Below, one piece after another: positions 539 through 15,398 of a stretch of 29,008 nt of DNA (positions within the stretch are counted from its first letter, which is position 1; each line of letters begins with the position of its first letter). The DNA comes from a virus: positions 1 to 29,008 of IMG/VR virus record IMGVR_UViG_3300027759_000319; one strand, given 5' to 3'. Below the pieces are notes generated by a model. That model was given only the letters and a program-made list of their open reading frames with translations, ran no database searches and had not been told where the DNA came from. The translations under genes were made by a program, and so were the position numbers.

Positions 539-1130
539 TGTGTTTCTGTATTGTTTGTTTAATCCATTTAAAATTTACTGGCGTGTAATTTGTCAAGCAG
601 GTACATACTGAATAGGCATTTTTTATTGGGTGCACAATTGTGTGTGAGTGACCGTATAAATGATATGCACCATGATGTTTTCCATTAAATTCAAGAATTG
701 GATAGTGGAATAAGACAATTCTTCGATAACCAATCTGTTGGTCAGAATCAGGAAAGAAAATCTCATCATACTCTTTAAACTCTATAATCTTTGCGGCTTC
801 ACTAAGTTCTCTAAACCACATGTCAGTTATATGAGTATCATGATTACCCTTTAACCAAATAATATTTCCATTAAGCTGACTAAAAATCCATTTAAGATAA
901 CTCAATTTAATTCGATACATTGAAGCATCACCTAGGAAAAAAACAGTGTCATCTTCCTGTACTACTGAATTCCAACGAGCAATTATTTCATTATCATGCT
1001 CTTCAATTGACTTAAAGTTATGGAAACCTTCCTCAAATCTTAAAACATTACTATGATCAAAATGTGGATCACTTATAAACCAGGTCTTGGCTGGGTCGTA
1101 TATTTTATTGGGAGGTATTTGTATGCTCAT
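489..1130 (-). CDS. Calcineurin-like metallophosphoesterase
   Basis: This 213-residue protein carries the full motif series of the calcineurin-like metallophosphoesterases: DPH at 21-23 followed by H26, GD at 67-68, GNHD at 95-98, H142 in FHYP, and GHSH at 160-163. These side chains bind the two metal ions that activate water for phosphoester hydrolysis. The small size, with nothing beyond the core, fits the phage and bacterial subgroup acting on small phosphodiesters or nucleic acid ends, but the substrate cannot be read from the sequence. Its ATG overlaps the stop of the nucleotidyltransferase-like gene (ATGA), which suggests translational coupling and perhaps a functional pair (phosphodiesterase plus nucleotidyltransferase). 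Family certain, substrate unknown. Confidence 0.88.
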   Translation of the reverse strand: MSIQIPPNKIYDPAKTWFISDPHFDHSNVLRFEEGFHNFKSIEEHDNEIIARWNSVVQEDDTVFFLGDASMYRIKLSYLKWIFSQLNGNIIWLKGNHDTHITDMWFRELSEAAKIIEFKEYDEIFFPDSDQQIGYRRIVLFHYPILEFNGKHHGAYHLYGHSHTIVHPIKNAYSVCTCLTNYTPVNFKWIKQTIQKHNEGLNRLGELSVHPTT

Positions 1131-2191
1131 GCTAGTTTTTTACTAACATACTCAAAAGCGGTTTCGGCATCACTCATAACCTTAGCTCGCTGTTGATGAG
1201 CTAGATCGGTTTCAGCCTTGTTATATTTAGACGAAGACGTGTGCTTGTCTATTTTTATTTTGTAAATATCGACAACTTCCTGTAAGAATTCTTGAGAGTT
1301 CTTGTATTTAGATTTAGGAAGCTCAAATGTACCGTTTTGTTCCAAGGTTCTGGCAAATCCCAAAATACCATTGCAAATCTGTTCAAGACTTAATGCAGTC
1401 ACATCAATGCCAGGGTGCTGTTGCAAGTATTGATCAAGCTGAACTGCTCGCTTCTCTCCACGCGTAAATTCATCAGTAAATTCTGCAAGCTGTGATATGA
1501 ACCGGTTAAAATCTCTGGTGACTATTTGCTCTTCAACTCCCTTACGTAATAATGGATTAACCAGTTCGCCGCCCTTAATCTTGGCAACAACGCCTCGATC
1601 GGTTACCGAAACATCAAGCGCATTACCGAATGCTTGATATAAAAAACCTACAACAAATCCTTTAATACCCCGAATTGGCGTATATCGGGCTTTTGCCCAA
1701 TCTGATGAGTAATTAAATGTTGAAATAATATCAACTTGTACAGGGCCATCCGTTAAATTTATGACTAACTTAAGAGTACCTTCAGAGATGGCACGGGTTT
1801 CTTCTTTATCTAGGTCAGGTCGAGTTGTCTTGGCTAACCACTGTAAAAAAAGACCATTATATTTTTTAAGTGTATCAATTTCAGCTTGGCGGCCTTGAGG
1901 CTCATTGAGCGGATACATTACAAGAATATCAACATCACCGTATGCCTTTTCTGGATTCTCTTCAAGATCCTTTTTAAAATAGACACCTGATCCGCCTGGA
2001 CCAACTACAGTTAATGAATCAAATCCATGAGCCTGCGCCCATTGATTAAAATCGTCAAAAATATTTTCAAGAACCCCAATTGCCTCCTGTAAAACAGCCG
2101 GCGTTATTTTGGTTCCCTGTGTTTTAGTTGTTGCCCAGCCACCCATTTCATTTATTTGTAAAAAGTCAGTAAATGATTTAATATTCTTCAA
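1127..2191 (-). CDS. Nucleotidyltransferase-fold protein with capsid-targeting-like leader
   Basis: A 354-residue protein whose centre looks like a polymerase-beta-type nucleotidyltransferase. GPGGSG at 64-69 precedes DVD (D86, D88), and a third acidic residue follows in VQVDII (D154); this glycine motif plus DxD and a distant D is the family's catalytic pattern. Nucleotide and acceptor are unknown. The first 15 residues (MKNIKSFTDFLQINE) stand outside this fold and resemble the T4 capsid-targeting sequence with a cleavable INE site, so the protein may be packaged in the head. A GATAAATA box lies 21 bases before the ATG, inside the end of the upstream glycosylase gene, consistent with late expression. 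The C-terminal 150 residues are helical and unrecognised. The fold call is moderate; the leader is visible directly. Confidence 0.7.
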   Translation of the reverse strand: MKNIKSFTDFLQINEMGGWATTKTQGTKITPAVLQEAIGVLENIFDDFNQWAQAHGFDSLTVVGPGGSGVYFKKDLEENPEKAYGDVDILVMYPLNEPQGRQAEIDTLKKYNGLFLQWLAKTTRPDLDKEETRAISEGTLKLVINLTDGPVQVDIISTFNYSSDWAKARYTPIRGIKGFVVGFLYQAFGNALDVSVTDRGVVAKIKGGELVNPLLRKGVEEQIVTRDFNRFISQLAEFTDEFTRGEKRAVQLDQYLQQHPGIDVTALSLEQICNGILGFARTLEQNGTFELPKSKYKNSQEFLQEVVDIYKIKIDKHTSSSKYNKAETDLAHQQRAKVMSDAETAFEYVSKKLA

Positions 2192-2212
2192 AACTCTTAA
2201 TATTCTTTTAGA

Positions 2213-2220
2213 TATTTATC
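2213..2220 (-). promoter_or_regulatory. Late-promoter-like box GATAAATA
   Basis: GATAAATA on the minus strand, 21 bases upstream of the ATG at 2191 and overlapping the glycosylase stop codon. It differs from the T4 late -10 consensus TATAAATA only at the first base. The same core sits 19-32 bases before several other genes here, which supports a real promoter. Confidence 0.5.
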
Positions 2221-3022
2221 GCTGAACTTCCGGCACCCAATGGGTGGTACGGCCGTCTAGTGTCTCTTCACGAACAACCGTATTTCCGTTGGGGTCCTGT
2301 TTCTGTGCATAGACCTCAAACTCAAACGTAAATCCTCCAGTTTCTCCATTTACTTGTCGATAATTTCTGATACTTGCTCCACCTTGATCATATGAAGCCC
2401 GCATTATTAATTTACCCCAATTCCATAATTGACAAATCTCATCTTGTGTTAAATCCTGCACCAATCGATGTGGCGATATCCGGCAGCGATACAGCATTTC
2501 ACATTTAATATAGTTACCTATACCAGCAAATAGAGACTGGTTCATTAATGCTTCAGCCACCGTTTTTTTCTGAACTTTAGGAATCTCAACTTTTCTAATA
2601 AAATCATACATGCTCGAAGTTTGATCGTTTAACATATCTAGTCCAAGACTTGACAGTTTTTTTGAAAGCTCGGTCTTCAGTGTGAACTTTAAGGTGCCAA
2701 ATCGGCGCTGATCAACAAAGTACAGAGAAGTATCATCGTCAAAGCCTATTCGGAAATGACTATGCGGTTTAAGTTCAGTTGACCAATAACCGCTCATGCC
2801 CAGTGTTATCCACAGGCACGTCTCGTCACTAAATTCCAACCAGATAAATTTGCCTTTAACTCCACCGCCGATCACACGGACTGGCACTGAGGTTTTAACA
2901 GTAAGATCAGGTGCCCTTTTTAAGAAACGGCCACCGAGTACCTCAAATTGAGAAATTGTTTTATTTTTAGCGAATTCTGAGATTCCCTCATAAACTCGTC
3001 TGCATTCCGGTCCCTCAGGCAT
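2216..3022 (-). CDS. Fpg/Nei-family DNA glycosylase with zincless finger
   Basis: A 268-residue bifunctional base-excision glycosylase. It starts MPEGPE: Pro2 is the family's Schiff-base nucleophile and Glu3 the catalytic acid, which fixes the start at 3022 although the frame stays open to 3214. Other landmarks are the conserved lysine region GVKGKF (54-59), DQRRFGT (104-110) and the helix-two-turn-helix DNA-binding segment with GIGNYIKCE (167-175). The C-terminus lacks the four zinc cysteines. It keeps the outline of the hairpin, ending GRTTHWVPEVQ with the DNA-contacting arginine (R258), a 'zincless finger' as known from NEIL1. It likely removes oxidised bases and cuts the abasic site. It is divergent from the plus-strand gene at 3059 and groups with the UvdE, exonuclease and ligase genes. 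Confidence 0.9.
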   Translation of the reverse strand: MPEGPECRRVYEGISEFAKNKTISQFEVLGGRFLKRAPDLTVKTSVPVRVIGGGVKGKFIWLEFSDETCLWITLGMSGYWSTELKPHSHFRIGFDDDTSLYFVDQRRFGTLKFTLKTELSKKLSSLGLDMLNDQTSSMYDFIRKVEIPKVQKKTVAEALMNQSLFAGIGNYIKCEMLYRCRISPHRLVQDLTQDEICQLWNWGKLIMRASYDQGGASIRNYRQVNGETGGFTFEFEVYAQKQDPNGNTVVREETLDGRTTHWVPEVQR

Positions 3023-3024
3023 AA

Positions 3025-3032
3025 GATAAATA
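3025..3032 (+). promoter_or_regulatory. Late-promoter-like box GATAAATA
   Basis: GATAAATA on the plus strand, 26 bases before the ATG at 3059. Same octamer as at 2213-2220 on the other strand, and again in front of a gene with a capsid-targeting-like start. Confidence 0.5.
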
Positions 3033-3058
3033 ACTTTATAAAAATATACCAAAAACAA

Positions 3059-3526
3059 ATGAAAAAATACGTTGAAATTTTTGAAAAGTTTGAAAAAGCT
3101 TTTGACAATATGCCAATTAAGAAAAAGAAAGTTGATCAAGACGCCGATGGTGATACTGATTTTATTGATGCAAAAGTTGCTCAATACCAAAAAGGCGGTA
3201 TGACAAAAGGACAAGCAATTGCAAAAGCAAAACAGTTTGCAAAAAAGAATAATATCAAGGACTCTAATAAGTCAGTAAAAGAGGGCTTTTTTAATAGATT
3301 TATGAAACCTTCTATTGACCAAGCCTCTGATGATTCAGTAAAGGGCCAAGGACACAGTCAGCGAGGTAATGATGATTTAGCCACACCTGCGGGCGAATAC
3401 ATTATGTTCAATGGTCAAAAATTTAGTCAAGACGAAATTGATTATGCTGATTATAACGATCTTGGCAAAATTCCTAGAATTGAAGATGGCATGTTAATTA
3501 TTGCCAATCCAAATTGGAGTAATTAA
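3059..3526 (+). CDS. Small protein with possible packaging leader and EF-hand-like loop
   Basis: A 155-residue charged protein. The start MKKYVEIFEKFE resembles the capsid-targeting leader seen on other genes here, though without a clear cleavage site. Residues 20-25 are a lysine cluster, followed by a calcium-loop-like motif D26-x-D28-x-D30-G31-D32 with F35-I-D37, and then a helix with GGMTKGQAIAKAKQFAKK. From memory, similar DxDxDG-plus-helix modules occur in T4-like phage head-associated proteins; I cannot check this. The C-terminal half is acidic and unrecognised. It is the first gene of a two-gene plus-strand unit with 3580-3777, preceded by a late-type box and closed by a hairpin terminator. 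It may be a minor head protein; calcium binding is unproven. Confidence 0.65.
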   Translation: MKKYVEIFEKFEKAFDNMPIKKKKVDQDADGDTDFIDAKVAQYQKGGMTKGQAIAKAKQFAKKNNIKDSNKSVKEGFFNRFMKPSIDQASDDSVKGQGHSQRGNDDLATPAGEYIMFNGQKFSQDEIDYADYNDLGKIPRIEDGMLIIANPNWSN

Positions 3527-3579
3527 TCTAAAACTGGTTAACCGTTTCAAGTAAAACATATCAAATCAAAACTTAAAAT

Positions 3580-3777
3580 ATGTATTATTTAGCAAAACTA
3601 CGCTTTGAGTCAGAAGATGACAATGGCAAAACAAAAAAAATTAGAGAACAATATTTGGTACAGGCCTCATCGGTTGGGGAAGCTGAACAAAAATTAATGG
3701 ATCGATTTGGTCAAGGAATTTCGCCTTGCCAATTAGAGGCAGTTCAGGAGTCTAAAATATTGGGACTAATTGAGTAA
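3580..3777 (+). CDS. DUF4494-like small protein (65 aa)
   Basis: A 65-residue protein, MYYLAKLRFES..., with the charged segment GKTKKIREQYLVQASSVGEAEQKL. That order (aromatic start, basic turn, E-x-Y-LV-x-A, then S-x-x-EAE) recalls one repeat of DUF4494, a small protein family typical of Bacteroidetes whose members usually contain two such halves. The role of the family is unknown. The ATG is 53 bases after the previous stop, and the gene is followed at once by a strong terminator, so it is cotranscribed with the 155-residue protein. The similarity is from memory of the family pattern and is moderately secure. It is one of the hints for a Bacteroidetes host. Confidence 0.65.
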   Translation: MYYLAKLRFESEDDNGKTKKIREQYLVQASSVGEAEQKLMDRFGQGISPCQLEAVQESKILGLIE

Positions 3778-3781
3778 TTAA

Positions 3782-3805
3782 AAAAAGGGACTTACGTCCC
3801 TTTTT
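3782..3805. terminator. Bidirectional hairpin terminator
   Basis: Perfect 10-bp inverted repeat, AAAAAGGGAC and GTCCCTTTTT, around the loop TTAC, with A/T runs giving a U tract on both strands. It lies between the convergent genes 3580-3777 (plus) and 3819-4091 (minus), so it can stop transcription from both sides. Confidence 0.9.
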
Positions 3806-3818
3806 AAGTTTTTAAAGA

Positions 3819-4091
3819 TTACCATAATGGAGTTTCTCCGATTTGATCAAGTGCACAGTGAAAGCCTTGAAGCCGAGTTTTTGCTTCTAAAAAACAGCCA
3901 CACAGTCTACATCTGGTAAAGGTTGAGTCAAAGTGATCACACGTTTTACAAATAGAAAGCCTATGATTTTTAGTAGATTCTGAAACAAATACCTTATTTA
4001 TTATTTTAGAAAGAATTGTTGGTTCAGGAGTCTTTATTGTTGAAGAGCCACCGCAGCCGCAGTCTTCAGTTGTTGTGTTAGTTGTATCCAT
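3819..4091 (-). CDS. Cysteine-rich zinc-ribbon-like protein (90 aa)
   Basis: A 90-residue protein with two cysteine groups. The N-terminal DCGCGGSS is followed by a linker, then a zinc-binding pattern C48-x2-C51 with CRLCGCFLEAKTR and a final C78 before the end LDQIGETPLW. A CxxC pair plus CxLCGC is typical of small phage zinc-ribbon proteins, whose function is generally unknown. The ATG directly abuts the uvdE stop codon with no intervening base, so the two are very likely coexpressed. A link to DNA repair is possible from position only. Metal binding is likely; DNA binding is not shown. Confidence 0.7.
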   Translation of the reverse strand: MDTTNTTTEDCGCGGSSTIKTPEPTILSKIINKVFVSESTKNHRLSICKTCDHFDSTFTRCRLCGCFLEAKTRLQGFHCALDQIGETPLW

Positions 4092-5066
4092 TTAGGATTG
4101 ATTTTTTTCTAATATACTTTTATCATCAAACGGTAAATAGGTTTCACGTAGATTTGCACAATACATTCGATATTTAATTAGGGCAAGGTCTTTCATTTTA
4201 CACTCAAGCTCTATATCAAACGTACGGTTATAGGTATTTATTTGTTCATAAATATAGTCCGCATGAGACCGCGCAATTACTGATGCATCTTCGTATGTTT
4301 TTTTGCAACTTGAATAATGAGTTAATTGAGTAGCATTACCCCAAGTGGTTGAGGCTAGAATTAAAGCCTCTTCTTCAGTAAGCCCGCTAGTATTAAATCG
4401 GTGATGGTGAAAGTCAAAGGTAATTGGTGTTGATATTTTTTTATAAATTAAATTATATAAGTCAACTACTGAATACTGAGTTTCTTTATCATCATTTTCA
4501 ACAACAAGCCGCTTTTTTGTATTTGCGGATAATTTTTCAAAGTTAGTACAGAATCGCTCAGCTGCTGCCTCTTTATCACCATACGTGCCGCCAACATGGA
4601 TATTAATTGGAAACTCATGTGTTAATGGCAAGCCCATCAGATCCATAATTTCACAGTGCTGATCCAGATCCTTTAGCGTTTTTCTAACAACTGCCTCGTT
4701 TGGAGATGGTAATACATCAAATTGACCAGGGTGCATTGATATGCGTATACCATTGGCGGTTACAAACTCGCCAATCTTTTGTAAATCCTTTAAAATTTCA
4801 GAAAAATTAGGAAGCTTTTGAATTTCATATTCTGACATCCATGGAAAAATATCGCTTGATATTCGGTATACATAGATTTCATGCGTTAGATTCCAGCGTA
4901 GAATAGTAAGAACATCTTTTATATTTTGGTGTGCTAATAAACTACAGTAGTCTTGACCTTTTGCCTGAAAGGTCCGCTTAATCATTCCACGATTTGCTGT
5001 AATTTTTCTACTGGCTAATGATAAATTAATACAACAATAGCCCAAACGTACATTATTATCTTTCAT
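4092..5066 (-). CDS. uvdE: UV damage endonuclease (UvdE/UvsE family)
   Basis: A 324-residue protein with family features throughout: RLGY at 7-10, RISSDIFPW at 68-76, SMHPGQF at 110-116, NIHVGGTYGDK at 155-165, VVENDD at 188-193, DFHHHRFN at 218-225, H268 near the end of the barrel and ELECKMKDLAL at 286-296. This is the TIM-barrel metal enzyme that nicks DNA directly 5' of UV photoproducts and some other lesions, starting an excision pathway independent of photolyase and UvrABC. Length is normal and all metal-ligand motifs appear intact. A GTATAATA box ends 5 bases before the ATG. With the nearby exonuclease, glycosylase and ligase it forms a plausible self-contained repair set. Confidence 0.95.
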   Translation of the reverse strand: MKDNNVRLGYCCINLSLASRKITANRGMIKRTFQAKGQDYCSLLAHQNIKDVLTILRWNLTHEIYVYRISSDIFPWMSEYEIQKLPNFSEILKDLQKIGEFVTANGIRISMHPGQFDVLPSPNEAVVRKTLKDLDQHCEIMDLMGLPLTHEFPINIHVGGTYGDKEAAAERFCTNFEKLSANTKKRLVVENDDKETQYSVVDLYNLIYKKISTPITFDFHHHRFNTSGLTEEEALILASTTWGNATQLTHYSSCKKTYEDASVIARSHADYIYEQINTYNRTFDIELECKMKDLALIKYRMYCANLRETYLPFDDKSILEKNQS

Positions 5067-5071
5067 AATAT

Positions 5072-5080
5072 TATTATACT
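5072..5080 (-). promoter_or_regulatory. AGTATAATA promoter-like box
   Basis: AGTATAATA on the minus strand, with TATAAT ending 6 bases before the uvdE ATG. The ligase gene has GGTATAATA at the same spacing and the FkbM gene has the identical nonamer 19 bases out. No -35 box is evident. At this spacing the transcript would be leaderless or nearly so. Confidence 0.45.
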
Positions 5081-5090
5081 ACAAAATATA

Positions 5091-5723
5091 TTAAATTTGA
5101 CCAGTTGATTGGTAATCGGTAGTTGCAGTTCTAATAACTCTAACCACATCGAGTGCATCTTGCAGAGCCTCATGGGCTACTTTGCGTGTTAATTTACATC
5201 GATCCATACAGGTCTGTAAATTAGGTAAGCTTTTATCAACCTGCCAATCCATTAATAAGATTGATGGATCTATAATTCGCTGCCTAATTTGAATTTTATT
5301 TGACCAGCCGGATAATTTTTCTAAAAATAATTTATCAAAAGTGGCAAAGTTTTTGCCAGCAACAGTTATGCTAATTTGACTGGTGGTCTCATTGACTGGA
5401 CCTAATCCATTTGAGTTTAGCCACATTGAAAAAGACTGGGCAACCAGTGATTCAGGTAAAATATTATACTCACTTCTAATTGCAAGACGATCCTCTTTAT
5501 TTGAAGTTTGTAATTTTGCTAGAATTGATAAAATAGGTTGATTCATATCTAGCGCAAATGCTTGCCCAGTATATTTAGCGTGCTCAACAATACACTTAAA
5601 TTTAGGCAGTTGATCAAACGGTACCACATTTAAGGTATCTTCAATAACTGCACCAATTTGAAGAATTTGACAATACTCTGGATCTAATCCAGTTGTCTCA
5701 ATATCAATACTAACAAACCGCAT
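5091..5723 (-). CDS. DEDDh-type 3'-5' exonuclease
   Basis: A 210-residue exonuclease of the DnaQ superfamily. Exo I is DIETTGLD (D7, E9), Exo II is GKNFATFDKLFL (D130), and Exo III is AHEALQDALDVV (H184, D189); the histidine five residues before the last aspartate defines the DEDDh subclass. These residues bind two metals and remove nucleotides from 3' ends. There is no polymerase domain, so it is a stand-alone nuclease. The insertion of about 40 residues between Exo I and II (58-100) is larger than in oligoribonuclease. Substrate (DNA ends, RNA or oligonucleotides) is not decided. It lies 24 bases upstream of uvdE in transcription order, which suggests a role in DNA processing. Confidence 0.88.
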   Translation of the reverse strand: MRFVSIDIETTGLDPEYCQILQIGAVIEDTLNVVPFDQLPKFKCIVEHAKYTGQAFALDMNQPILSILAKLQTSNKEDRLAIRSEYNILPESLVAQSFSMWLNSNGLGPVNETTSQISITVAGKNFATFDKLFLEKLSGWSNKIQIRQRIIDPSILLMDWQVDKSLPNLQTCMDRCKLTRKVAHEALQDALDVVRVIRTATTDYQSTGQI

Positions 5724-5732
5724 GGTTATATT

Positions 5733-6134
5733 CTAAAAAGGTAAATCATCATCAGTTAACTCATCAAGTAGAGTTGTTGATTTAGAGATAGGTGCTGATG
5801 TATGAATATCATCAAAGTCGGTATCATCAGAAGAGTTTCCAATTTCTGCTCTTTTTTGACCACTAATTCTCCAAGCTTCAAGCGTTGTGAAATATTTTAC
5901 CTGACCAGTTTTATCAGTCCAGTCGCGGCCCTTTGGGTTAAATGATACAGTAACAGTATCTCCGATACCAAATGACTCCAGCATATCGCATTTTTCTTGT
6001 ACTAATTGAAATAGTATTTTTTGTGGGTACTTATCCCCTGTCTCAACGACAAATTCGCGTTTACGAAATCCTTTGTTAAATGTTTGGGCTGGAAATGCCT
6101 CAATGATTACCCCTGTTAATTCAAAATTGCTCAT
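5733..6134 (-). CDS. DUF3127 SSB-like protein
   Basis: A 133-residue protein matching DUF3127, an OB-fold-like family common in Bacteroidetes: start FELTGVIIEAFP, then FRKREFVVETGDKYPQKILFQL, then GDTVTVSFNPKGRDW and KYFTTLEAWRIS. The tail is acidic and ends DDDLPF, closely resembling the DDDIPF tip by which bacterial SSB recruits partner proteins. The probable role is binding single-stranded DNA during phage replication or repair, although DUF3127 proteins are poorly studied. It sits one base after the guanylate kinase stop and just before the exonuclease, in a replication and repair operon. The family call is fairly secure; SSB function is inference. Confidence 0.85.
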   Translation of the reverse strand: MSNFELTGVIIEAFPAQTFNKGFRKREFVVETGDKYPQKILFQLVQEKCDMLESFGIGDTVTVSFNPKGRDWTDKTGQVKYFTTLEAWRISGQKRAEIGNSSDDTDFDDIHTSAPISKSTTLLDELTDDDLPF

Positions 6135-6135
6135 G

Positions 6136-6618
6136 TTAAAAGTTTTGATTTGTTATTTTTATATTATAGTTTTTAAAGTTTTTAAAATCTTCGCGATCAG
6201 CCTCGAGTCTACGCTCAACTGAATCACCTGGCATTTTTCTCTCCAGTAATCTCTGTTTTCTTACCTCTTCATCAATATCTAAATAAATTACAGTTGATGT
6301 TTTTCTATCATCTTCGGATAATTGATTTAAACCAGACGGTGTCATAATAAAAATATCATCATTATAAAACTGCTTTTTAGTTGTTCCATAAATCCATCCA
6401 TTAAATGCAACCCATTCATAAAATTCGCATTTATCAATCATGTCCTGTGCATCAGGCTGTTTAATAAAAAAATAATCTTGACCGTCTATTTCATCTGGTC
6501 TTGGAGGTCTAGTTGTATAGCTTACGGCATATTTAAAACCCTGAGCCTCAAATATTTTACGAATATAGTCTTTGCCACTTGCAGCCTTGCCTACTAATAT
6601 TATTCGTTTGTGTTTCAT
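6136..6618 (-). CDS. Guanylate kinase-like protein
   Basis: A 160-residue P-loop kinase. GKAASGKD at 10-17 is the Walker A loop, SYTTRPPRPDEIDGQDYFF (33-51) is the GMP-binding signature of guanylate kinases, and YGTTKKQF follows the lid strand. The C-terminal lid and adenine-binding region (RKQRLLERKMPGDSVERRLEADREDF) is recognisable. It is shorter than bacterial guanylate kinase (about 200 residues), with the loss mainly at the C-terminus. It should phosphorylate GMP or dGMP to the diphosphate and feed phage DNA synthesis; T4 has a broader dNMP kinase for this. It lies between ligase and the DUF3127 gene with 1-3 base gaps. Confidence 0.85.
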   Translation of the reverse strand: MKHKRIILVGKAASGKDYIRKIFEAQGFKYAVSYTTRPPRPDEIDGQDYFFIKQPDAQDMIDKCEFYEWVAFNGWIYGTTKKQFYNDDIFIMTPSGLNQLSEDDRKTSTVIYLDIDEEVRKQRLLERKMPGDSVERRLEADREDFKNFKNYNIKITNQNF

Positions 6619-6621
6619 ATT

Positions 6622-7917: not shown

Positions 7918-7922
7918 AAAGA

Positions 7923-7931
7923 TATTATACC
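7923..7931 (-). promoter_or_regulatory. GGTATAATA promoter-like box
   Basis: GGTATAATA on the minus strand, with TATAAT ending 6 bases before the ligase ATG, exactly the spacing seen at uvdE. It lies just downstream of the 7936-7960 terminator, so the ligase operon needs its own promoter here. Confidence 0.45.
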
Positions 7932-7935
7932 AAAT

Positions 7936-7960
7936 AAAAAAAGCTGCGGTTGCAGCTTTT
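7936..7960 (-). terminator. Hairpin terminator after gene 7997-8665
   Basis: GCTGC and GCAGC pair around a GGTT loop, extended by four A-T pairs, and on the minus strand the stem runs into seven T residues. It ends the unit 9819-7997 and separates it from the ligase operon. Confidence 0.85.
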
Positions 7961-7996
7961 AATTAAAATTTTCAAAAAGATTAAGAGTAATATTTA

Positions 7997-8665
7997 CTAT
8001 TCTTCTTTTGGATATTTTTTAAGTATAGTTTGAATTTGACTAATTACTTTTGGTATATCATTGTCTAAAGTTTTGGTTCCAATACTTCCAATATCACTAG
8101 TTAAACTATCGCCGTCTTCGTCTCGTTTATATAAAGTTAAAATACGGCCAATTGCTGAAACTTTGGTTGTATCATCATCTGCTGTAGCTTTTTGGCCAAC
8201 ATATAACTCTAATATTTTTTTAATTTCTCTTACATCATCAGAGTAAACAGGAAAATCTAAACAATCAACTAAATCGTCAACTACTTTTTGTAAATCTTCA
8301 TCTGAGTATGTGTTAATCCTACCAGTACCGCCATCGTCGGTTTCGGTATTGTCATTAGTGCTTTTGCCTGGAGTTAATACTATAGACTCTTCCGGTAGTT
8401 CGTTATTAATAATTGTATAATTAATCGATACCATCTCAGCACCAGCATTATCCTTAATCTTTACAGTATAAGTTCCATCCTTTTGAATGTTCTTCTCAAC
8501 ATCTCCCATAAATTGATTCCATTGCTTTATATAGGCGTCATTGTTTTCTCCACTTAATACTAGTTTAAGGTTTTCAGCAGTTTGACCGTTAGACTCATTT
8601 ATTCTATTAAAATAGCCATATTTTTTCTGCTCAGCAAGTATTGCATAATTTTTTAAGTTAATCAT
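7997..8665 (-). CDS. Hypothetical protein with capsid-targeting-like leader (222 aa)
   Basis: A 222-residue acidic protein with no recognised domain. Its start, MINLKNYAILAE, lines up with the T4 internal-protein leader MKTYQEFIAE: basic residue, aromatic, short hydrophobic stretch, then LAE. A second possible cut site is INE before S25. The middle is rich in D, T and S (about 100-120), and the C-terminal half is helical with KKILELYVGQKA. It is the second gene of a two-gene unit with 8674-9819 (8-base gap), whose product carries the same type of start. It may therefore be a packaged internal protein. Function unknown; the leader is the main evidence. Confidence 0.7.
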   Translation of the reverse strand: MINLKNYAILAEQKKYGYFNRINESNGQTAENLKLVLSGENNDAYIKQWNQFMGDVEKNIQKDGTYTVKIKDNAGAEMVSINYTIINNELPEESIVLTPGKSTNDNTETDDGGTGRINTYSDEDLQKVVDDLVDCLDFPVYSDDVREIKKILELYVGQKATADDDTTKVSAIGRILTLYKRDEDGDSLTSDIGSIGTKTLDNDIPKVISQIQTILKKYPKEE

Positions 8666-8673
8666 ATCTTTAT

Positions 8674-9819
8674 TTATTTTTTTTTAATTAAGGATTTTTT
8701 ACGTTTTATTAAGGATTTTTTACGTTTTGTTGTATTAGTGTTAGTCTTTTTAGTCTGATCAACTGCTTTAAGCTGGTCAGCGGTTACGCTGGCTAGAGCA
8801 GTAGTTAACTGAGTTACTACATCTGCGGTAATATCAGTAACTGAAGTACCTGCAGCATTTGTTAAAAGACCAATTGCTAAAGCTGTTTTTTTCCCATAGT
8901 TAGCATCAGCTCCACCGCTATTCTTAACGGCCTCAGCCGCTTTTATATGGTTTGGGTCGTTAGGATATGCACTAGCACCTGCAATAATCATTTTTTGCAA
9001 TTGACGAACCACTTCTGACTTTTGGCCTTGCTTTAATCCAGTAAATTGGGTAAATCCGCCGGTAACTCCGCCGCCTCCACCTGCTGCGCTGGTTCCGCTG
9101 GTTCCGCCGCCTCCTGCATTTTGGCTTCCTCCGCTTCCTCCGCCGCCTCCGCTTCCTCCGCCTGCTGCTGCTAACCTCTCTTTTTCAGCTGCGGCTTTAA
9201 GTTTGTCAGCTTCAATTTGGGCATTTGTTCCACCCGCGCCTGGACCGCCAGTTGCAATAGCTCCTGTACCTGAAGTAGATCCTTTAGTTAATTGTGCCAT
9301 CTGTGAAATATCCCAAATATTTACGCTGATAGATTTAAGAATTGTTGGAATTTCCATATATGGTGTTATCTCGTAATTGGTTATCATTTTTTGAATCTCA
9401 TCGGCTGATTTAAAATTTGAGGAATATTTAAAAATTAAATCCGCATCAAACAATACATTATTATTAACAAGCTTTCTCTGTCTTAATGTTTTTACTTTAA
9501 TAAAAATAACCGCCGCTGGTGATAGTGATCCATCTTTATTTTTTGTAGTGCTAGATCGGGCGTCTGAACCAGCTTTAAATGCTGGATCTGCCGGTAATTG
9601 AGTTGCTACATATTGTTTAGCTACATTAATTGCCTGTTCTTCAGTTGCTCTTACATCATCTGGCATATTATACACTGCTGAGAATGATATATTTTGCAAT
9701 TCATCAGACTGTGGTGTATTATTTGTAACTTTAAATTTGTGATTTGCAGATTCATTAATTGGCACTAACTTTGCCGAGTTTGACTCTGTTATAAAGCGAT
9801 CAAATGATTTAAATATCAT
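8674..9819 (-). CDS. Packaging-leader protein with Gly-rich linker and peptidoglycan-binding-like domain
   Basis: A 381-residue modular protein. Residues 1-12 (MIFKSFDRFITE) form a capsid-targeting-like leader with an ITE site, and PINE at 20-23 offers a second cut. Residues about 28-175 are an unrecognised alpha/beta domain. Residues 185-256 are a glycine-rich linker with Ala/Glu/Lys helix AEKERLAAA. Residues 260-318 resemble the peptidoglycan-binding fold (PF01471), with LKQGQKSEVVRQLQKMI and YGKKTALAI marking the usual start and end. The C-terminus is a basic tail built from KRKKSLI repeats. If packaged, it could help the genome or co-delivered proteins through the cell wall; that is inference. 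A perfect TATAAATA lies 53 bases upstream of the ATG. Confidence 0.75.
   Translation of the reverse strand: MIFKSFDRFITESNSAKLVPINESANHKFKVTNNTPQSDELQNISFSAVYNMPDDVRATEEQAINVAKQYVATQLPADPAFKAGSDARSSTTKNKDGSLSPAAVIFIKVKTLRQRKLVNNNVLFDADLIFKYSSNFKSADEIQKMITNYEITPYMEIPTILKSISVNIWDISQMAQLTKGSTSGTGAIATGGPGAGGTNAQIEADKLKAAAEKERLAAAGGGSGGGGGSGGSQNAGGGGTSGTSAAGGGGGVTGGFTQFTGLKQGQKSEVVRQLQKMIIAGASAYPNDPNHIKAAEAVKNSGGADANYGKKTALAIGLLTNAAGTSVTDITADVVTQLTTALASVTADQLKAVDQTKKTNTNTTKRKKSLIKRKKSLIKKK
8686..8727 (-). repeat. 21-bp tandem repeat encoding KRKKSLI
   Basis: Two copies of a 21-bp unit (8686-8706 and 8707-8727) that differ at one base, in frame at the 3' end of the gene. They give two KRKKSLI units and then a final KKK. 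This looks like a recent duplication that lengthened a basic tail. Confidence 0.85.
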
Positions 9820-9872
9820 AAATTTATTTACTATTTTATAATTAACTAAATACTACCTTAGTTATACATAGT

Positions 9873-9880
9873 TATTTATA
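9873..9880 (-). promoter_or_regulatory. T4-late-like promoter box TATAAATA
   Basis: Exact TATAAATA on the minus strand in the divergent intergenic region, 53 bases before the ATG at 9819. Spacing is longer than at the other boxes. A related TTATAAAATAG lies nearer the start at about 9832-9842. Confidence 0.5.
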
Positions 9881-9894
9881 TCGCCATACCTAAA

Positions 9895-9902
9895 GATAAA
9901 TA
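9895..9902 (+). promoter_or_regulatory. Late-promoter-like box GATAAATA
   Basis: GATAAATA on the plus strand, but only 7 bases from the ATG at 9910. A transcript from it would be leaderless, so this assignment is weaker than the others. Confidence 0.3.
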
Positions 9903-9909
9903 AATCAAT

Positions 9910-11037
9910 ATGAAGTATCTTTTTGAATTTGCAGAATATTTAGAGTCAACGGCCCTAGATCAGGCATTTGGAATACTTGGTGATACTGGCAAGGACTCTC
10001 AATTCGGTGAACAAACTGGCTATTTTAAAGAATTAATTCAATATGCAAATGACTCAGAAGTTGATGCATTTGTATTTACTGACTTTACCTCAACTGGCTG
10101 TACTGCCTGGACACTAGTTAATGATAAATGGACCTCATCAGTTAGAGGACTGCCTGCGGTATTTTATGATAGAAGCTTTAAAAATAAAACCAATAAAGGT
10201 AAAACTTCAAATACCAGATTTTTATTAAATCTTGGGTGTACTCCGCTAAACAGTCCAGATTTTAGAAAAGTATCACTTGATAAATATTTAACCTATCAAA
10301 CCTTAATAAATGAAGACCTTGGCAAATTAAAGATTCCGCATACCCAAAAATACAGTAAATCTAATCTTATTAGGTTTATGAGCAATTATCCTGAGGCTAT
10401 TATTAAACCTAGATTTGGATCTGGCGGTAAAGGTATAATTAAGGTAGCTAAAAAGGGCTCAAGTTATTTAATTAACTATTTAGATAAGTCAACAACTGCA
10501 ACCGACCTAAATTTAGTAGACCGCATTGATGCAATCCGTAAAAGTATGAGATCTAATGGCAGAATTTATATTATTCAAGAGTGTATTTCTCTACCTCAAT
10601 ATAATGGAGGAGTATTTGATGTTCGGGTAATATATCAACGGGATAAGACTAAAAAACCAGTACGAACAGGCATGGCAGTTAGATTGGCTAAGCCCAGTAA
10701 AATTACCGCAAATTTACATCAAGGCGGCAGTAAAGAAACCCTAAGTAATATTTTAAAATCAATATTTAACCAAGATATAGACGGCCCGATTGCCCAGTCA
10801 ATTAGAGACGCATCACAGGTAATATTTGATATTTTAGATAAAAAGTCTGGCCCAATTGGAGAAATCGGATTGGATTTTTTAATAGATCAAAGCGGCGAAA
10901 TCCACCTACTAGAGGTAAATTCAATTCCAGGAAGAAATTTATTTAAAATACTACCTGATATTAGAAAAACTGCAATTCAAAGACCAGTTGACTATGCCAA
11001 CCGGTTGTTAAAGGATCTTACCAAAAAAAGCCGCTAA
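9910..11037 (+). CDS. YheC/YheD-type ATP-grasp enzyme with capsid-targeting-like leader
   Basis: A 375-residue ATP-grasp protein of the YheC/YheD type, otherwise known from Bacillus spore-associated proteins. The family domain starts at FGILGDTG (20-27). Landmarks are GLPAVFYDR (80-88), K166-P with the flexible loop GSGGKG (170-175), IIQE (221-224), FDVRV (236-240), a basic/His segment HQGG (270-273), EIGLDF (318-323) and the metal site LLEVNSIPGR (333-342). Such folds join an acid to an amine using ATP; the substrate is unknown. Ahead of the family domain sits an extra leader, MKYLFEFAEYLE, matching the packaging-leader pattern. It is one of three plus-strand genes, divergent from the peptidoglycan-binding-like gene, and its stop lies in the loop of a terminator. 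Confidence 0.85.
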   Translation: MKYLFEFAEYLESTALDQAFGILGDTGKDSQFGEQTGYFKELIQYANDSEVDAFVFTDFTSTGCTAWTLVNDKWTSSVRGLPAVFYDRSFKNKTNKGKTSNTRFLLNLGCTPLNSPDFRKVSLDKYLTYQTLINEDLGKLKIPHTQKYSKSNLIRFMSNYPEAIIKPRFGSGGKGIIKVAKKGSSYLINYLDKSTTATDLNLVDRIDAIRKSMRSNGRIYIIQECISLPQYNGGVFDVRVIYQRDKTKKPVRTGMAVRLAKPSKITANLHQGGSKETLSNILKSIFNQDIDGPIAQSIRDASQVIFDILDKKSGPIGEIGLDFLIDQSGEIHLLEVNSIPGRNLFKILPDIRKTAIQRPVDYANRLLKDLTKKSR

Positions 11038-11048
11038 TGCGGCTTTTT
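11023..11048. terminator. Bidirectional terminator with stop codon in its loop
   Basis: AAAAAGCCGC and GCGGCTTTTT pair around the loop TAAT, and the loop contains the TAA stop of the ATP-grasp gene (11035-11037). It has a T run on the plus strand and an A run on the other side, so it can serve both this gene and the converging minus-strand gene that ends at 11068. Confidence 0.9.
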
Positions 11049-11067
11049 AATTTAAAATAAAACGATT

Positions 11068-11271
11068 TTACATTAGTTTAATTGCATTATAGAGTTTTAG
11101 TCTATTTTTAGCATTTCCATTTGAATATTTATCCCAAAGAATAGAGGACTCAGTATCCATAAATGAATAGGCATCAGCAGCAGTCATATATTTTTCAAAT
11201 AGGTCATGGCTAGATGAAGATGCGGCTAATTTAATTAGATCAATATCTAATAATCGCCTATGATATCCCAT
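11068..11271 (-). CDS. Hypothetical protein (67 aa)
   Basis: A 67-residue mostly helical protein beginning MGYHRRLLDIDLIKLAASS. No family is recognised. Its ATG overlaps the stop codon of the 174-residue upstream gene by one base (TAATG), indicating coupled translation, and its transcription would end at the hairpin at 11023-11048. No function is proposed. Confidence 0.6.
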   Translation of the reverse strand: MGYHRRLLDIDLIKLAASSSSHDLFEKYMTAADAYSFMDTESSILWDKYSNGNAKNRLKLYNAIKLM

Positions 11272-11795
11272 TAATTAGAGGCTGGAGTGGTTTCAGCTTC
11301 TCGTAATTTTGCAATTTGAGAATCTAATGATTTCATTTCCATAATTACATTATTTAATGCAATTGCAATTCTAAATACACGTTGAGCAGTATCTAATCCA
11401 GAGCCTTCATACTTATTTAACATTAAGGCACAGGCTTCAATTGCAGATGCTGATAAATTTACAGTAGGGTTATCAATTCCGCTATTGGTTGCTGCCTCTA
11501 GTGTTCCGATTGCAGAGGCAAATCCTAAGTAACAATTCATTAACATAAAAGCCTCATTTGGACCGGTAAATGGAAATTTGTTATTACAGCCATTTTTAAT
11601 CCATTTTAAATCTGCCATGTCTAAATTAATAGCCCAATATCCAGTACGCTTATTAATTAATTTGTCAACTTCTGACATTTCTTTAGCCTCAGGCTCAGTG
11701 TTAGTTTCGGTAGATGACTCAGGTCCTGCAACCATTTCAGTATCAGGCGCATCCATTACTAGTGAATCAGTAATTAAGTCGGTTGTTTTTTTCAT
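11271..11795 (-). CDS. Hypothetical protein with acidic N-terminus (174 aa)
   Basis: A 174-residue protein. Residues 1-45 are acidic and probably disordered (many E, T, S and P). The remainder is a compact helical domain with NKRTGYWAINLDMADLKWI, then a series of alanine- and leucine-rich helices, and a coiled-coil-like end MKSLDSQIAKLREAE. No family is recognised. A TATAAATC sequence lies 9 bases before the ATG, a weak match to the late box. It is coupled to the 67-residue gene by a one-base overlap. The architecture fits a phage assembly or accessory protein, but nothing specific can be claimed. Confidence 0.65.
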   Translation of the reverse strand: MKKTTDLITDSLVMDAPDTEMVAGPESSTETNTEPEAKEMSEVDKLINKRTGYWAINLDMADLKWIKNGCNNKFPFTGPNEAFMLMNCYLGFASAIGTLEAATNSGIDNPTVNLSASAIEACALMLNKYEGSGLDTAQRVFRIAIALNNVIMEMKSLDSQIAKLREAETTPASN

Positions 11796-11846
11796 AAATT
11801 ATTTGATTTATATTTAGATTATATTACTAAAAAAAATAGGCAAGTT

Positions 11847-12314
11847 TCAGAAAATTCTATCTAAAATTATTCTTTGAGCTGCTGCTATTTTAGAATAGGC
11901 TAGCTCAATATCAATAAACCCAGCCCAGTCAATTTCGGCCTTTTGTAATTGTGATTTAGGCACAGTTAAGCCAGTTAAGCCAATTTCAGATAGGTTATTG
12001 ATATTACAAATTAAATAGTGAATATTATTAATAACAGTTTTGCCAGAATATACCTGAATTATTTCAGTATTTTGCTCTACCTGATTAGGTTTAATCCGTA
12101 TACCAGTTTCCTCGTATGTTTCCCTAAGTGCAGCATCTTCTGGCGATTCGCCATCCTCTATTTTACCCTTGGGAATTCCCATAACTGGATTAGCCCAGCT
12201 ACCATTTGTTGCATGCACTAATAAAATTTTTGAATTATAAATTATTGCAATACCTGCACTGTCTCTCTTTTTTTTAGGGCCTGTATTTGAGAACTTTTCA
12301 AATGTATTAATCAT
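11847..12314 (-). CDS. Nudix hydrolase
   Basis: A 155-residue Nudix enzyme: the box G50-KIEDGESPEDAALRETYEETG-I72 matches GX5EX7REUXEEXGU exactly, giving the metal-binding glutamates for hydrolysis of a nucleoside diphosphate linked to another group. Substrate is not readable; candidates include nucleotide sugars, dinucleoside polyphosphates, damaged dNTPs or RNA caps. The frame is open to 12377, but I choose the ATG at 12314. It leaves a 10-base gap after the preceding gene, and it starts MINTFEKFSN, which resembles the packaging leaders in this window (without a clear Glu cut site). The longer start would overlap the upstream gene by 53 bases. Confidence 0.85.
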   Translation of the reverse strand: MINTFEKFSNTGPKKKRDSAGIAIIYNSKILLVHATNGSWANPVMGIPKGKIEDGESPEDAALRETYEETGIRIKPNQVEQNTEIIQVYSGKTVINNIHYLICNINNLSEIGLTGLTVPKSQLQKAEIDWAGFIDIELAYSKIAAAQRIILDRIF

Positions 12315-12324
12315 AGCTAAGTTA

Positions 12325-13053
12325 TTAAAGTAAATAAGGACACTTCTTGGAAATCTCCTCTCTATTAATATACTCACTTAAATATTTTTCAACTAATGAT
12401 TTAGAGGTTTGGTGTCTATACCAATTTGGGATTTTTCCAAGTTTAGATTCATATGCTTGGAAATATAAATCAACAAGCTCAGGTGTTTTTAATTTAAAAT
12501 TTTCCATTGCCAATAGGATTGGACCAGCTTTAGTAAAACCTATTCTAAATCTAGAAAATTCTGATGCTAATTTAGAATATAAGGTTTCAGAAATTTGAGA
12601 TAATATTGGAATCTCAGGATATCGAGCTGTATTTAAATGAATTGGCTTGCCATCAATTATCTCTCTAGCTCCAATTATACGACCTTCATATGTAGCCACC
12701 TGAATTTGAGTATCAATTTTCGGTTTACTAAAATAAATTGAACCCTTTAATAAATTTGCACTATTCAGGTGTCTAAATGTTGGAAAAGTTTGAATAGTAG
12801 AGTTTGGAGAAATTACTGAAATTGGTGTCCTTAATTTCATAGCCTTAAATCGGTCTCCTACAAATCCAGGAATTACATCTGAGCCGGCTAATCTATTAAA
12901 TACTTGATGCGTTGAATATTCGTTTGGGGTAATTTGTACGCTAATCTTTGCATCACTGTTAAATAGGTCAGGAATATTATGGTTTTCTCCAATTAGGGCA
13001 ATTTTTTTAGAGAAAATATCATGGACTTGAAACTCATCAAATGGTCTTATCAT
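12325..13053 (-). CDS. Unknown protein, possibly degenerate ATP-grasp-like (242 aa)
   Basis: A 242-residue protein not firmly recognised. It starts MIRPFDEFQVHD, similar to the leaders of its neighbours (aromatic pair, then an acidic residue). The central and C-terminal parts (QVATYEGRIIGAREIIDGKPI, then KAGPILLAMENFKL at about 195-208) loosely follow the end of an ATP-grasp domain, where a 'D-lead-hydrophobic-E-x-N' strand binds metal. Key residues such as the P-loop-like glycine motif are missing. I regard this as a weak structural guess. Its ATG overlaps the stop of the 782-residue gene by four bases and it is followed closely by the Nudix gene, so the three form one operon. Confidence 0.55.
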   Translation of the reverse strand: MIRPFDEFQVHDIFSKKIALIGENHNIPDLFNSDAKISVQITPNEYSTHQVFNRLAGSDVIPGFVGDRFKAMKLRTPISVISPNSTIQTFPTFRHLNSANLLKGSIYFSKPKIDTQIQVATYEGRIIGAREIIDGKPIHLNTARYPEIPILSQISETLYSKLASEFSRFRIGFTKAGPILLAMENFKLKTPELVDLYFQAYESKLGKIPNWYRHQTSKSLVEKYLSEYINREEISKKCPYLL

Positions 13054-15398
13054 CTACGAGTTATTAATTTTCCAATTTTAAAAAAAGATTCATCTAGATT
13101 AATATCATTAATACCAAATGAATCTGGAAAAGTTCCACCTTTCCAGTGAGCAAGCACTTCCTCTTTAACTTCTTCTCTTCTATCTGGACTTAATTTTCCA
13201 TCCTTTATTAAAAGATCAAGGGTTTCATCTAACTTAGAGGTAGGTGATTCATTAATTAATAGTGCTCCATCTTTATAACTAAATACATCAGAGATATATG
13301 CGATATGAACTGGATCACTTGCTGAGATTGGGTGCTGTGGATCAATATTGGTATCTTGGTTAATTAAGCGAAGTAATGATTTATTATAGTCAGAGATACC
13401 AGCTTCTTTAAAATCCTCAGGTGTAATTAAAGCAGTTTCAATCTGTCCTTCTTTATATGCATGATGCCATTTTATAAGAGCAGTAGCCTTAGAAACAGCG
13501 ACTGCACTATTTAACTGGCATGGATTAGCATTAGTTTCGTTAACTATCTTTGACTTAGCAGCGGCAGCCGCCTCTATTTTATCAGACAGTACCTGATATT
13601 GCTCAGGATTACTGGTTTTTAATTCTTCAAGTTCAGCTGAACTTATTTCAGCAAGTGGATCAGTGTCTTCGTTTATTATGATTTTAGATAATAGTTCGTT
13701 TAGCGAATTAAGTGCACCAGAAGTCATTGCACCAGTAGCAGATGATGATACTCGTGATAAAATTTCAGAAGGGGTTCCTTTGATTAGCAAAGTTGCACAT
13801 TCGCCTTTTAAACACTGTTTTATAATAAATGCCATAAGTACCCTTAAGCTTGTGCCACGATATCCAGCTAATTTAGCAAGAGTTTTTTGAATCTGCTTAA
13901 GATTTTTAGTTCCAGCAATTAAGGCCTCAGGCGACTCTTTAAATATAGATAAGGTTTTAGCAACCTGAGCTTCCTTTGAAATAATATGTTCCATAATTGC
14001 AGGATTTTCGGACATTTCCTTAAATAATCTAGAAATTTCAGCAGGTTTGCCAGTTTTAATTGCATCAACCAGAGCAGCTTCACCTGGGCGCCATCCCATA
14101 GCTACAAGTTCATTAGAGATTTTAGTCTCTTTCATTAAATTTACAATTGAAGTTGCGGATTTAGCGTTAAGAACACCGCCTATTAATTTTTCAGTTACCG
14201 CAGACTTTAGATAAATTTCTTTAAATTTAGGACTTACACCCGATTTCACAAGTGATTCCCATTCTTTTGAGCCTTGAATCTCAAGCTTAAGATCTTTACT
14301 TAATAGGTTAAGCTCTCCAAGCGACTTCGCCGTTTTATCCCCAATTAGGGCCACCTCCGTTGCACTTTTACCAGCAAGGTTCGCTGCATCCTTTGCTGCA
14401 ATTGAACCAGCATCAGCGGTTGCCGCAGCACCCGCAAGTAATCTAGAGTCTTCTTTTACCAAAAGTTCACCGGCTTCAGTTGCGGCCTTTCCAGCCGAGG
14501 TCATTTTAATAACAAGCTCATCAACCCATCTAACCGCACCAGCTGGTAGTTTAAGCTTACCTAATGATACTAATTGAATTGATTTAGATATAAGTGAAAT
14601 TAGCGACTTGATTATAAGAAGTCCAGTACTAAGAATGAATGTACCAATTGACTTTAATATGTCTCCAAGTTTTGGAATAATTCCACCAGCTGATGCGGCT
14701 GCTTTATCAATAACAAGTGCGCCAGATGTAAATTCCATTGCCCCAGCCCTTAAGGCTGCTGAGCTTGAACCTTTAAATACCAAAGCAAACAACTTTTCTG
14801 CTCCTTTTATAAATGGCTTAATTGCTACTTTTAGACCGGCACCAATTGGGCCAGCAAAGGCAAATAGAATATTTATAGCTGCCAGTATATAACTCGGTTC
14901 ATCTTGAAAAATATAAATTAGTGCATTTACTAAAGATGCAGTAACATCAAAAGGAAAAAGAAACCAGGATGTTGGAATAAGAGACATAATATCTAATACA
15001 AAGTGTACTATACCAAGTGCATTGCCGCCGTCTGTCATTAGCAATAAAAAGCTTTTAACCGAATCAGCCAGGCTTTCATTTAACGAATTAAGAGATTCGA
15101 GAGTTTCTAAATATGCTCCTTCTAGAGTTAAAGAAACTGGCTTATATCCATATCTGGTTAGTAAGCTTTCATTTCGGTTAATCTCTGATATACTATCAAA
15201 ATTTTCTAATAGGTATATTTGATGAGACGTTATGGCCCAGGCCTCTTGTTTAGAAATTTCCCTAGCTGGTTTAAATTTAAGAGTATTGATATATTTCCAA
15301 TTATCAATAGGAACTGCCAATATAGATTCCCTAAGTTTAATTAATTTAGGATTATTATGAAGTTCAAAAAATTCAGTCGATGATGTTATAAATTTCAT
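13050..15398 (-). CDS. Large hydrophobic virion/ejection-type protein (782 aa)
   Basis: A 782-residue protein of unknown family. The start MKFITSSTEFFELHNNPK and a possible cut site LRE before S25 resemble the leaders of nearby genes. Residues about 118-190 contain closely spaced hydrophobic helices (LDIMSLIPTSWFLFPFDV, then LVNALIYIFQDEP, then ILFAFAGPIGAGLKVAIK). This arrangement recalls the pre-toxin/transmembrane segment of polymorphic toxins, and a further hydrophobic stretch lies at 250-272. Residues 300-600 are Ala/Lys/Glu-rich helices; the C-terminus is acidic and soluble. A large, leader-bearing, membrane-active protein expressed late is what an internal protein ejected with DNA would look like; this is inference. 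AATAAATA lies 20 bases before the ATG. Confidence 0.65.
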   Translation of the reverse strand: MKFITSSTEFFELHNNPKLIKLRESILAVPIDNWKYINTLKFKPAREISKQEAWAITSHQIYLLENFDSISEINRNESLLTRYGYKPVSLTLEGAYLETLESLNSLNESLADSVKSFLLLMTDGGNALGIVHFVLDIMSLIPTSWFLFPFDVTASLVNALIYIFQDEPSYILAAINILFAFAGPIGAGLKVAIKPFIKGAEKLFALVFKGSSSAALRAGAMEFTSGALVIDKAAASAGGIIPKLGDILKSIGTFILSTGLLIIKSLISLISKSIQLVSLGKLKLPAGAVRWVDELVIKMTSAGKAATEAGELLVKEDSRLLAGAAATADAGSIAAKDAANLAGKSATEVALIGDKTAKSLGELNLLSKDLKLEIQGSKEWESLVKSGVSPKFKEIYLKSAVTEKLIGGVLNAKSATSIVNLMKETKISNELVAMGWRPGEAALVDAIKTGKPAEISRLFKEMSENPAIMEHIISKEAQVAKTLSIFKESPEALIAGTKNLKQIQKTLAKLAGYRGTSLRVLMAFIIKQCLKGECATLLIKGTPSEILSRVSSSATGAMTSGALNSLNELLSKIIINEDTDPLAEISSAELEELKTSNPEQYQVLSDKIEAAAAAKSKIVNETNANPCQLNSAVAVSKATALIKWHHAYKEGQIETALITPEDFKEAGISDYNKSLLRLINQDTNIDPQHPISASDPVHIAYISDVFSYKDGALLINESPTSKLDETLDLLIKDGKLSPDRREEVKEEVLAHWKGGTFPDSFGINDINLDESFFKIGKLITRR

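Follow-up and report, generated by a model that had tools for sequence, protein, structure and literature searches.

In phage T4, the protease gp21 cuts after L/I-x-E, a capsid-targeting sequence (CTS) loads unrelated proteins, and the internal proteins (IPs) and Alt are ejected (PMC9026906, PMC3012670, PMC12373910). At the ip hotspots of T-even phages, where Ip1-3 act against GmrSD restriction, a constant leader is combined with exchangeable bodies (PMC12373910). The phiKZ-like giants (SPN3US, phiKZ, 201phi2-1) eject many head proteins that have been cleaved after Glu (PMC5694885, PMC9026906). Here we analyze IMG/VR record IMGVR_UViG_3300027759_000319, a 29-kb fragment (29,008 nucleotides, hereafter the window) of a T4-like jumbo phage, for which an earlier note had proposed that several unrelated proteins share a CTS-like leader ending in hydrophobic-x-Glu and form an injected enzyme kit. 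A leader motif of this kind opens 6-27 genes in each of eight related contigs. Our best reading, which we hold with high confidence, is that these are T4-type capsid-targeting leaders serving a greatly expanded cargo set, and that they would dock on a repeat scaffold, be cut and be packaged.

Results

The host group of the window phage is probably Bacteroidota, because the conserved gene at 24648-25655 matches only Bacteroidota phages and uncultured phages. Two close relatives, G001 and G002, are 93-94% identical to the window over 24 kb, and two near-genome-size contigs, G003 (253,137 bp) and G004 (252,618 bp), are about 75% identical over 13-14 kb. The leader survey covered G003 and G004 (~253 kb each) and six further contigs (G001, G002 and G005-G008), and counts of strict leader families cover nine contigs.

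The 112 strict leaders give the logo K-x-F-x-[QED]-[FW]-[ILV]-[NT]-E↓[S/N/A], with the arrow marking the predicted cut. The two aromatics, P3 and the Glu were part of the seed; K at P9, Q/E/D at P5, N/T at P2 and S/N/A at P1' emerged without being seeded. P1 is E in 91% of the strict leader families and P3 is I, L or V in 88%, at a leader length of about 10-15 residues. For counting we used the motif F..[FWY][ILVM].E, ending at residue <=18, and took the expectation from its interior frequency. G003 has 18 motif genes against 0.57 expected (shuffled N-termini: mean 0.29, maximum 2), G004 has 12 against 0.49 and G001 has 6 against 0.05. Given that the motif was chosen after viewing G003 and G004, four contigs used neither for motif choice nor for profile training served as a held-out test, and all four replicated the excess (observed/expected: G005 12/0.59, G006 5/0.56, G007 6/0.30, G008 5/0.20; Poisson P 2e-12 to 3e-4). 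At 5% false discovery, a leave-out profile finds 27 genes in G003, 17 in G004, 20 in G001, 6 in G002, 19 in G005, 10 in G006, 12 in G007 and 6 in G008. The further leader-bearing genes for which the earlier note suggested a search are present in the relatives, and the shared leader stands well beyond chance. A DNA ligase that fits the regular expression, MQNDFIQLQNFIEE, was rejected as probably a chance match inside the ligase. The 462-kb uncultured phage LR756500 has a leader of its own, MKYIKxYxxF[IL]NE, with 29 motif genes against 4.65 expected. A cultured relative, Chryseobacterium phage MA9V-2, has leader starts such as MKTFTYFINE↓AKRN (166687), MKTFFTFVNE↓SVTN (216401), MKNFFSFINE↓ANSF (162897) and MRTFTQIINE↓SIDI (40608); for MA9V-1, the protein data found in the literature consist of an SDS-PAGE (PMC10537231).

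The T4 leader MKTYQEFIAE scores with the jumbo-phage profile. In a blind test on the 260 T4 genes, the profile trained without T4 ranked IPII, IPIII, IPI and gp22 among the first seven (P=1.2e-5 for the three IPs) and missed Alt (p=0.79). The sequence FGSFLTE↓A of T4 gp23 fits the leader motif. The first-ranked T4 match is gp61.1 (AF158101 18966-19130; 54 aa, hypothetical), which starts MKTFKEFIKE and is a candidate internal head protein.

That the parts downstream of the leader are unrelated, as the earlier note had it, holds genome-wide: in G003, none of the 27 bodies behind strict leaders matches another of them at E<1e-3, and the 112 strict leaders stand on 58 unrelated body families. At G001 33603-35949, the first 24 bases (ATGAAACACATTAAACTATTTGAA) are identical in four adjacent genes whose bodies are unrelated; between the first two genes the identity runs to nearly 45 bases. 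On the strength of this array, the leader DNA seems to be copied as a cassette.

Most leader cargoes in the relatives have no family match. Pfam-type matches among the others are to phage lysozyme (Phage_lysozyme), VanY carboxypeptidase, CHAP, PG_binding_1, NTP_transf_2 and DUF5824, and further cargoes are a 5'-3' deoxyribonucleotidase-like enzyme and leucine-rich repeat (LRR) proteins. Judged by these matches, peptidoglycan enzymes figure prominently in a mixed cargo set, for which a host-takeover kit would be too simple a description. For the leader-bearing wall hydrolases, wall breaching at entry or lysis would be real alternatives to takeover; T7 gp16 is a precedent for a head-packaged wall hydrolase. 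In G001 (L034:8175-11820) there is also a tandem array of LRR-like proteins with starts of the form MKY[IL]xL[YF]E, two of which match LRR_EndoS in Pfam. A small leader-bearing Lys-rich repeat protein with KSVDPKMA units adjoins the capsid gene in three contigs (G003 62245-62604, G005 154089-154442, G006 103095-103448) and is a candidate core or DNA-condensing protein.

The gp21-type prohead protease for which the earlier note suggested a search is encoded in G003 and G004 as a Peptidase_S77 domain (Pfam 33 bits against a cut-off of 27). Its catalytic His and Ser segments match in sequence: GELDHP, present in all loci read, and the SSR segment (TSSR) align with GELNHP and VSSR of T4. The domain lies N-terminal to a long scaffold-like region in one fused protein, next to a Gp23-family capsid gene (Pfam Gp23 E=2.5e-42). 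In every locus read, the scaffold holds 8-11 tandem 14-residue repeats with the consensus I-x-Y-[ST]-E-Y-[VLI]-A-E↓[NK], and the period is exactly 14 residues where measured. Repeat and leader have matching spacing of the aromatics, the hydrophobic P3 and the Glu. The capsid protein of all loci carries NAG[SAM][ILM]NE↓[SA] around residue 53, which ends like the leaders. Similar repeats occur in the LR756500 scaffold, and inspection of T4 gp22 found no such tandem repeats. In PTm1, MA9V-2 and LR756500 the protease likewise lies in a long fused frame. An internal Met (MANDFVSREEM) ahead of the repeats in the G003 protein might start a scaffold-only form.

In the window, genes are named here by the position of their first base (Table 1). 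All N-termini listed in the earlier note are where it placed them, that of 2191 reading from a TTG. The leaders of 2191, 8665 and 9819 are solid by conservation, being kept with their L/I-x-E site in every close relative. For 2191, leader and TTG start are kept in all five genomes, with mostly synonymous nucleotide changes, and residues 1-10 and 13-15 are invariant. An in-frame ATG directly follows the leader Glu and might allow a second, leaderless product. At the 8665 locus, five genomes (the window and G001-G004) have in common the leader M[KR]xIN[LI]xNYA[IL]LxE...GYYSxxE, and the body has been swapped: the window body is without similarity to that of G001-G004 (E>=2.2), which form one of the two body families. 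For 9819, the leader and PINE are nearly invariant over five genomes and the bodies are 26-29% identical; invariant columns number 11/23 in the leader against 22/358 in the body of five orthologues (Fisher P=2.5e-7).

Proteins at the 8665 position in G001-G004, and the protein of G003 83003-84535, also end in leader-like C-terminal tails (SFSDFLK, TFNDFYKK, EFSDFLKQ), which at the 8665 position mostly follow [VI]xE or KE; C-terminal processing occurs in T4 Alt too. The C-terminus of the 9819 protein (window 8674-8760) is a duplicated KRKKSLI tract, and the tails of its relatives are Gly-rich (GTSGTAG).

Orthologues gave partial support to 13053 and 15398, through a conserved [ILV]xE further in. 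In six orthologues of 13053, F5, F8, G22, E23 and N24 are invariant, and in 15398 conservation falls on [LI]RE and not on the proposed FFE. The cut site first proposed for the ATP-grasp protein and the leader of the Nudix protein found no support in orthologues. The ATP-grasp domain of 9910 (ATPgrasp_YheCD, E=3e-56) begins at residue 122, its orthologues read EYLE, EYLD and QYSA at the proposed E12, and it is the earlier [LV]FE at residue 6 that is conserved. No orthologue of Nudix 12314 has an L/I-x-E site (starts MIDTFDNFTKPKK and MIKDFENFAAPKK), and its start is probably not a cleaved leader. The leader status of 3059 is ambiguous on the sequences compared.

Searches for the nature of the window cargoes gave little, and the former labels 'nucleotidyltransferase' and 'membrane-active' were not confirmed. 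The 2191 protein has no match in Pfam, PHROG or PDB, and its structure model (predicted local distance difference test, pLDDT, 40) is unusable. Profiles of 2191, 13053, 15398 and 9819, and the ATP-grasp protein itself, returned nothing useful from PDB sequence searches, the phages collection held no relatives of the 2191 and 15398 proteins, and PADLOC gave only weak Nudix and nucleotidyltransferase matches. A weak model of 13053 has ATP-grasp-fold enzymes as its top-50 Foldseek matches (best E=2e-3), and its predicted fold is like that of ATP-grasp peptide ligases (RimK/LysX/macrocyclase). The window would thus have a second ATP-grasp-like protein in addition to 9910, with a Nudix gene and a methyltransferase gene nearby.

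Table 1 Leaders, leader-like starts and cargoes of the window, and the fused protease-scaffold of a relative (PSSM, position-specific scoring matrix; ↓, predicted cut)
Feature	Position	Strand	Remark
Leader MKNIKSFTDFLQINE, TTG start, predicted cut INE↓M	2147..2191	-	PSSM p=4e-4
Leader-bearing protein, 354 aa, GG..DVD motif	1127..2191	-	nucleotidyltransferase not confirmed
Leader-like start MKKYVEIFE (weak) of gene 3059-3526	3059..3085	+	MKRHVQIFE in G003, MKRHVQGFE in G004
Leader MINLKNYAILAE and second site INE (residue 24) of gene 7997-8665	8594..8665	-	orthologue leaders
Cargo, 222 aa, no identified function	7997..8665	-	replaces ~500-570 aa cargo of G001-G004 at same position
Leader MIFKSFDRFITE and second site PINE (residue 23) of gene 8674-9819	9751..9819	-	PSSM p=5e-5
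Cargo with peptidoglycan-binding-like DGxYGxxTA motif and Gly-rich linker	8674..9819	-	no Pfam match
Short leader-like start MKYLFE of YheC/D ATP-grasp gene 9910-11037	9910..9927	+	[LV]FE conserved
Start MINTFEKFSNT of Nudix gene 11847-12314	12279..12314	-	PSSM p=0.005
Extended leader-like start MIRPFDEFQ...LIGE↓N of gene 12325-13053	12985..13053	-	[IV]GE↓N at residues 21-24
Leader-like start of gene 13050-15398	15327..15398	-	[LI]RE at residues 22-24 in all orthologues
Fused S77 protease-scaffold	G003 64429-66411 (L011:4429-6411)	-	Peptidase_S77 domain and repeats

Discussion

The earlier proposal of a T4-type capsid-targeting leader gains from the S77 protease, from the motif shared by scaffold and capsid protein, and from the blind recovery of the T4 internal proteins. 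At sequence level, support comes from the leader itself, its expansion, the unrelated bodies, conservation with body replacement, the protease and the matching motifs. We strongly infer that the leader proteins are packaged and cleaved, and we infer from the likeness of leader and repeat that docking proceeds through it; the proteins are probably delivered with the phage DNA. While the prohead core is forming, a leader, as one aromatic-xx-aromatic-[ILV]-x-E unit, would dock on the fused S77 protease-scaffold with its 8-11 tandem 14-residue copies of a near-leader unit. The protease would then cut after Glu in leaders, scaffold repeats and capsid protein, and the trimmed cargo would stay in the head and leave with the DNA. 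We put forward more tentatively, at a little under even chances, that the leader copies a single scaffold repeat at the molecular level, the repetitive, self-cleaving scaffold having been made into a docking rail, and that a leader carried as a DNA cassette opened the way to open-ended loading of dozens of exchangeable effectors.

Chance, or a general N-terminal composition in which short Lys/aromatic starts meet a coincidental E, could draw on the frequency of [ILV].E alone at N-termini (101 genes against 86 expected in G003), and the Nudix start and the ATP-grasp E12 are such cases among the proteins first listed. This account is nevertheless extremely improbable: the core motif in G003 is about 30-fold above the interior rate and far above shuffled N-termini, the held-out contigs replicate it, a scan of phiKZ found no match, and the leader is kept as bodies diverge. 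For the core leader set, chance is refuted. Many recognized cargoes act on peptidoglycan (Phage_lysozyme, VanY, CHAP, PG_binding_1), and the leader might therefore mark proteins for another site, such as the membrane, the periplasm or the lysis machinery. We regard this as quite improbable, given that the leader lacks a hydrophobic signal-peptide core, that the scaffold shares its motif and the capsid protein the end of that motif, that it matches the T4 CTS and that non-wall enzymes bear it as well. A more serious alternative, although still unlikely, is that the leader does target the prohead core and that its proteins are structural core or DNA-organizing components of the mature head, not delivered to the host. 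The Lys-rich repeat protein beside the capsid gene and the many cargoes without an enzyme match would suit it, whereas the enzymes among the cargoes (5'-3' deoxyribonucleotidase-like, NTP_transf_2, lysozyme, VanY and CHAP) speak for delivery, and body replacement under one leader is closer to the T4 anti-restriction IPs than to structure.

Several points weigh against the preferred reading of packaged, T4-type leaders. Genes in the relatives' contigs were called by our own script, so their starts are predictions. The window has no capsid or protease gene (a Peptidase S77 family search found none in this fragment of a genome), and both are deduced from relatives about 75% identical in nucleotides. 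By PSSM, no more than two of the 37 window genes, 9819 and 2191, reach significance individually; 12314 is weaker, and 15398 (p=0.06) and 9910 (p=0.11) weaker again. The lysozyme, VanY and CHAP cargoes could be lysis enzymes. PTm1 has the S77 protease, yet no leader set is detectable in it; a search for a leader of its own gave 20 N-termini with [ILV][NST]E against 16.5 expected.

A common label on dozens of unrelated proteins means that delivered proteins can probably be read from the genome. For a large group of Bacteroidota jumbo phages, most of it unannotated, N-termini alone would be enough to predict which proteins are likely packaged in the head, and candidates for delivered effectors can be listed. 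Similarity to the scaffold repeats also offers a testable idea for CTS recognition, an answer to which was not found in the literature searched, and a short leader might load foreign proteins. No description of an expanded leader system with a leader-like repeat scaffold was found in that literature, most subscription journals lying outside it.

Like the CTS of T4 IPI-III and Alt, the jumbo-phage leader is an N-terminal segment of ~10-15 residues on unrelated proteins, ends in L/I-x-E and occurs in genomes with an S77 protease. Unlike T4, which has only a handful, a jumbo genome has up to 27 strict leader genes; wall hydrolases, LRR proteins and nucleotide enzymes are among its cargoes, and its protease is fused to a scaffold of leader-like repeats. 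Cleavage in the phiKZ-like phages follows [S/A]-x-E, and their propeptides often exceed 100 residues; a leader with I/L/V at P3 and ~10-15 residues falls outside that type. As in the T-even ip hotspots, a conserved leader stands over exchangeable bodies; unlike there, leader DNA appears copied within arrays (G001 33603-35949), and the leaders occupy many loci genome-wide.

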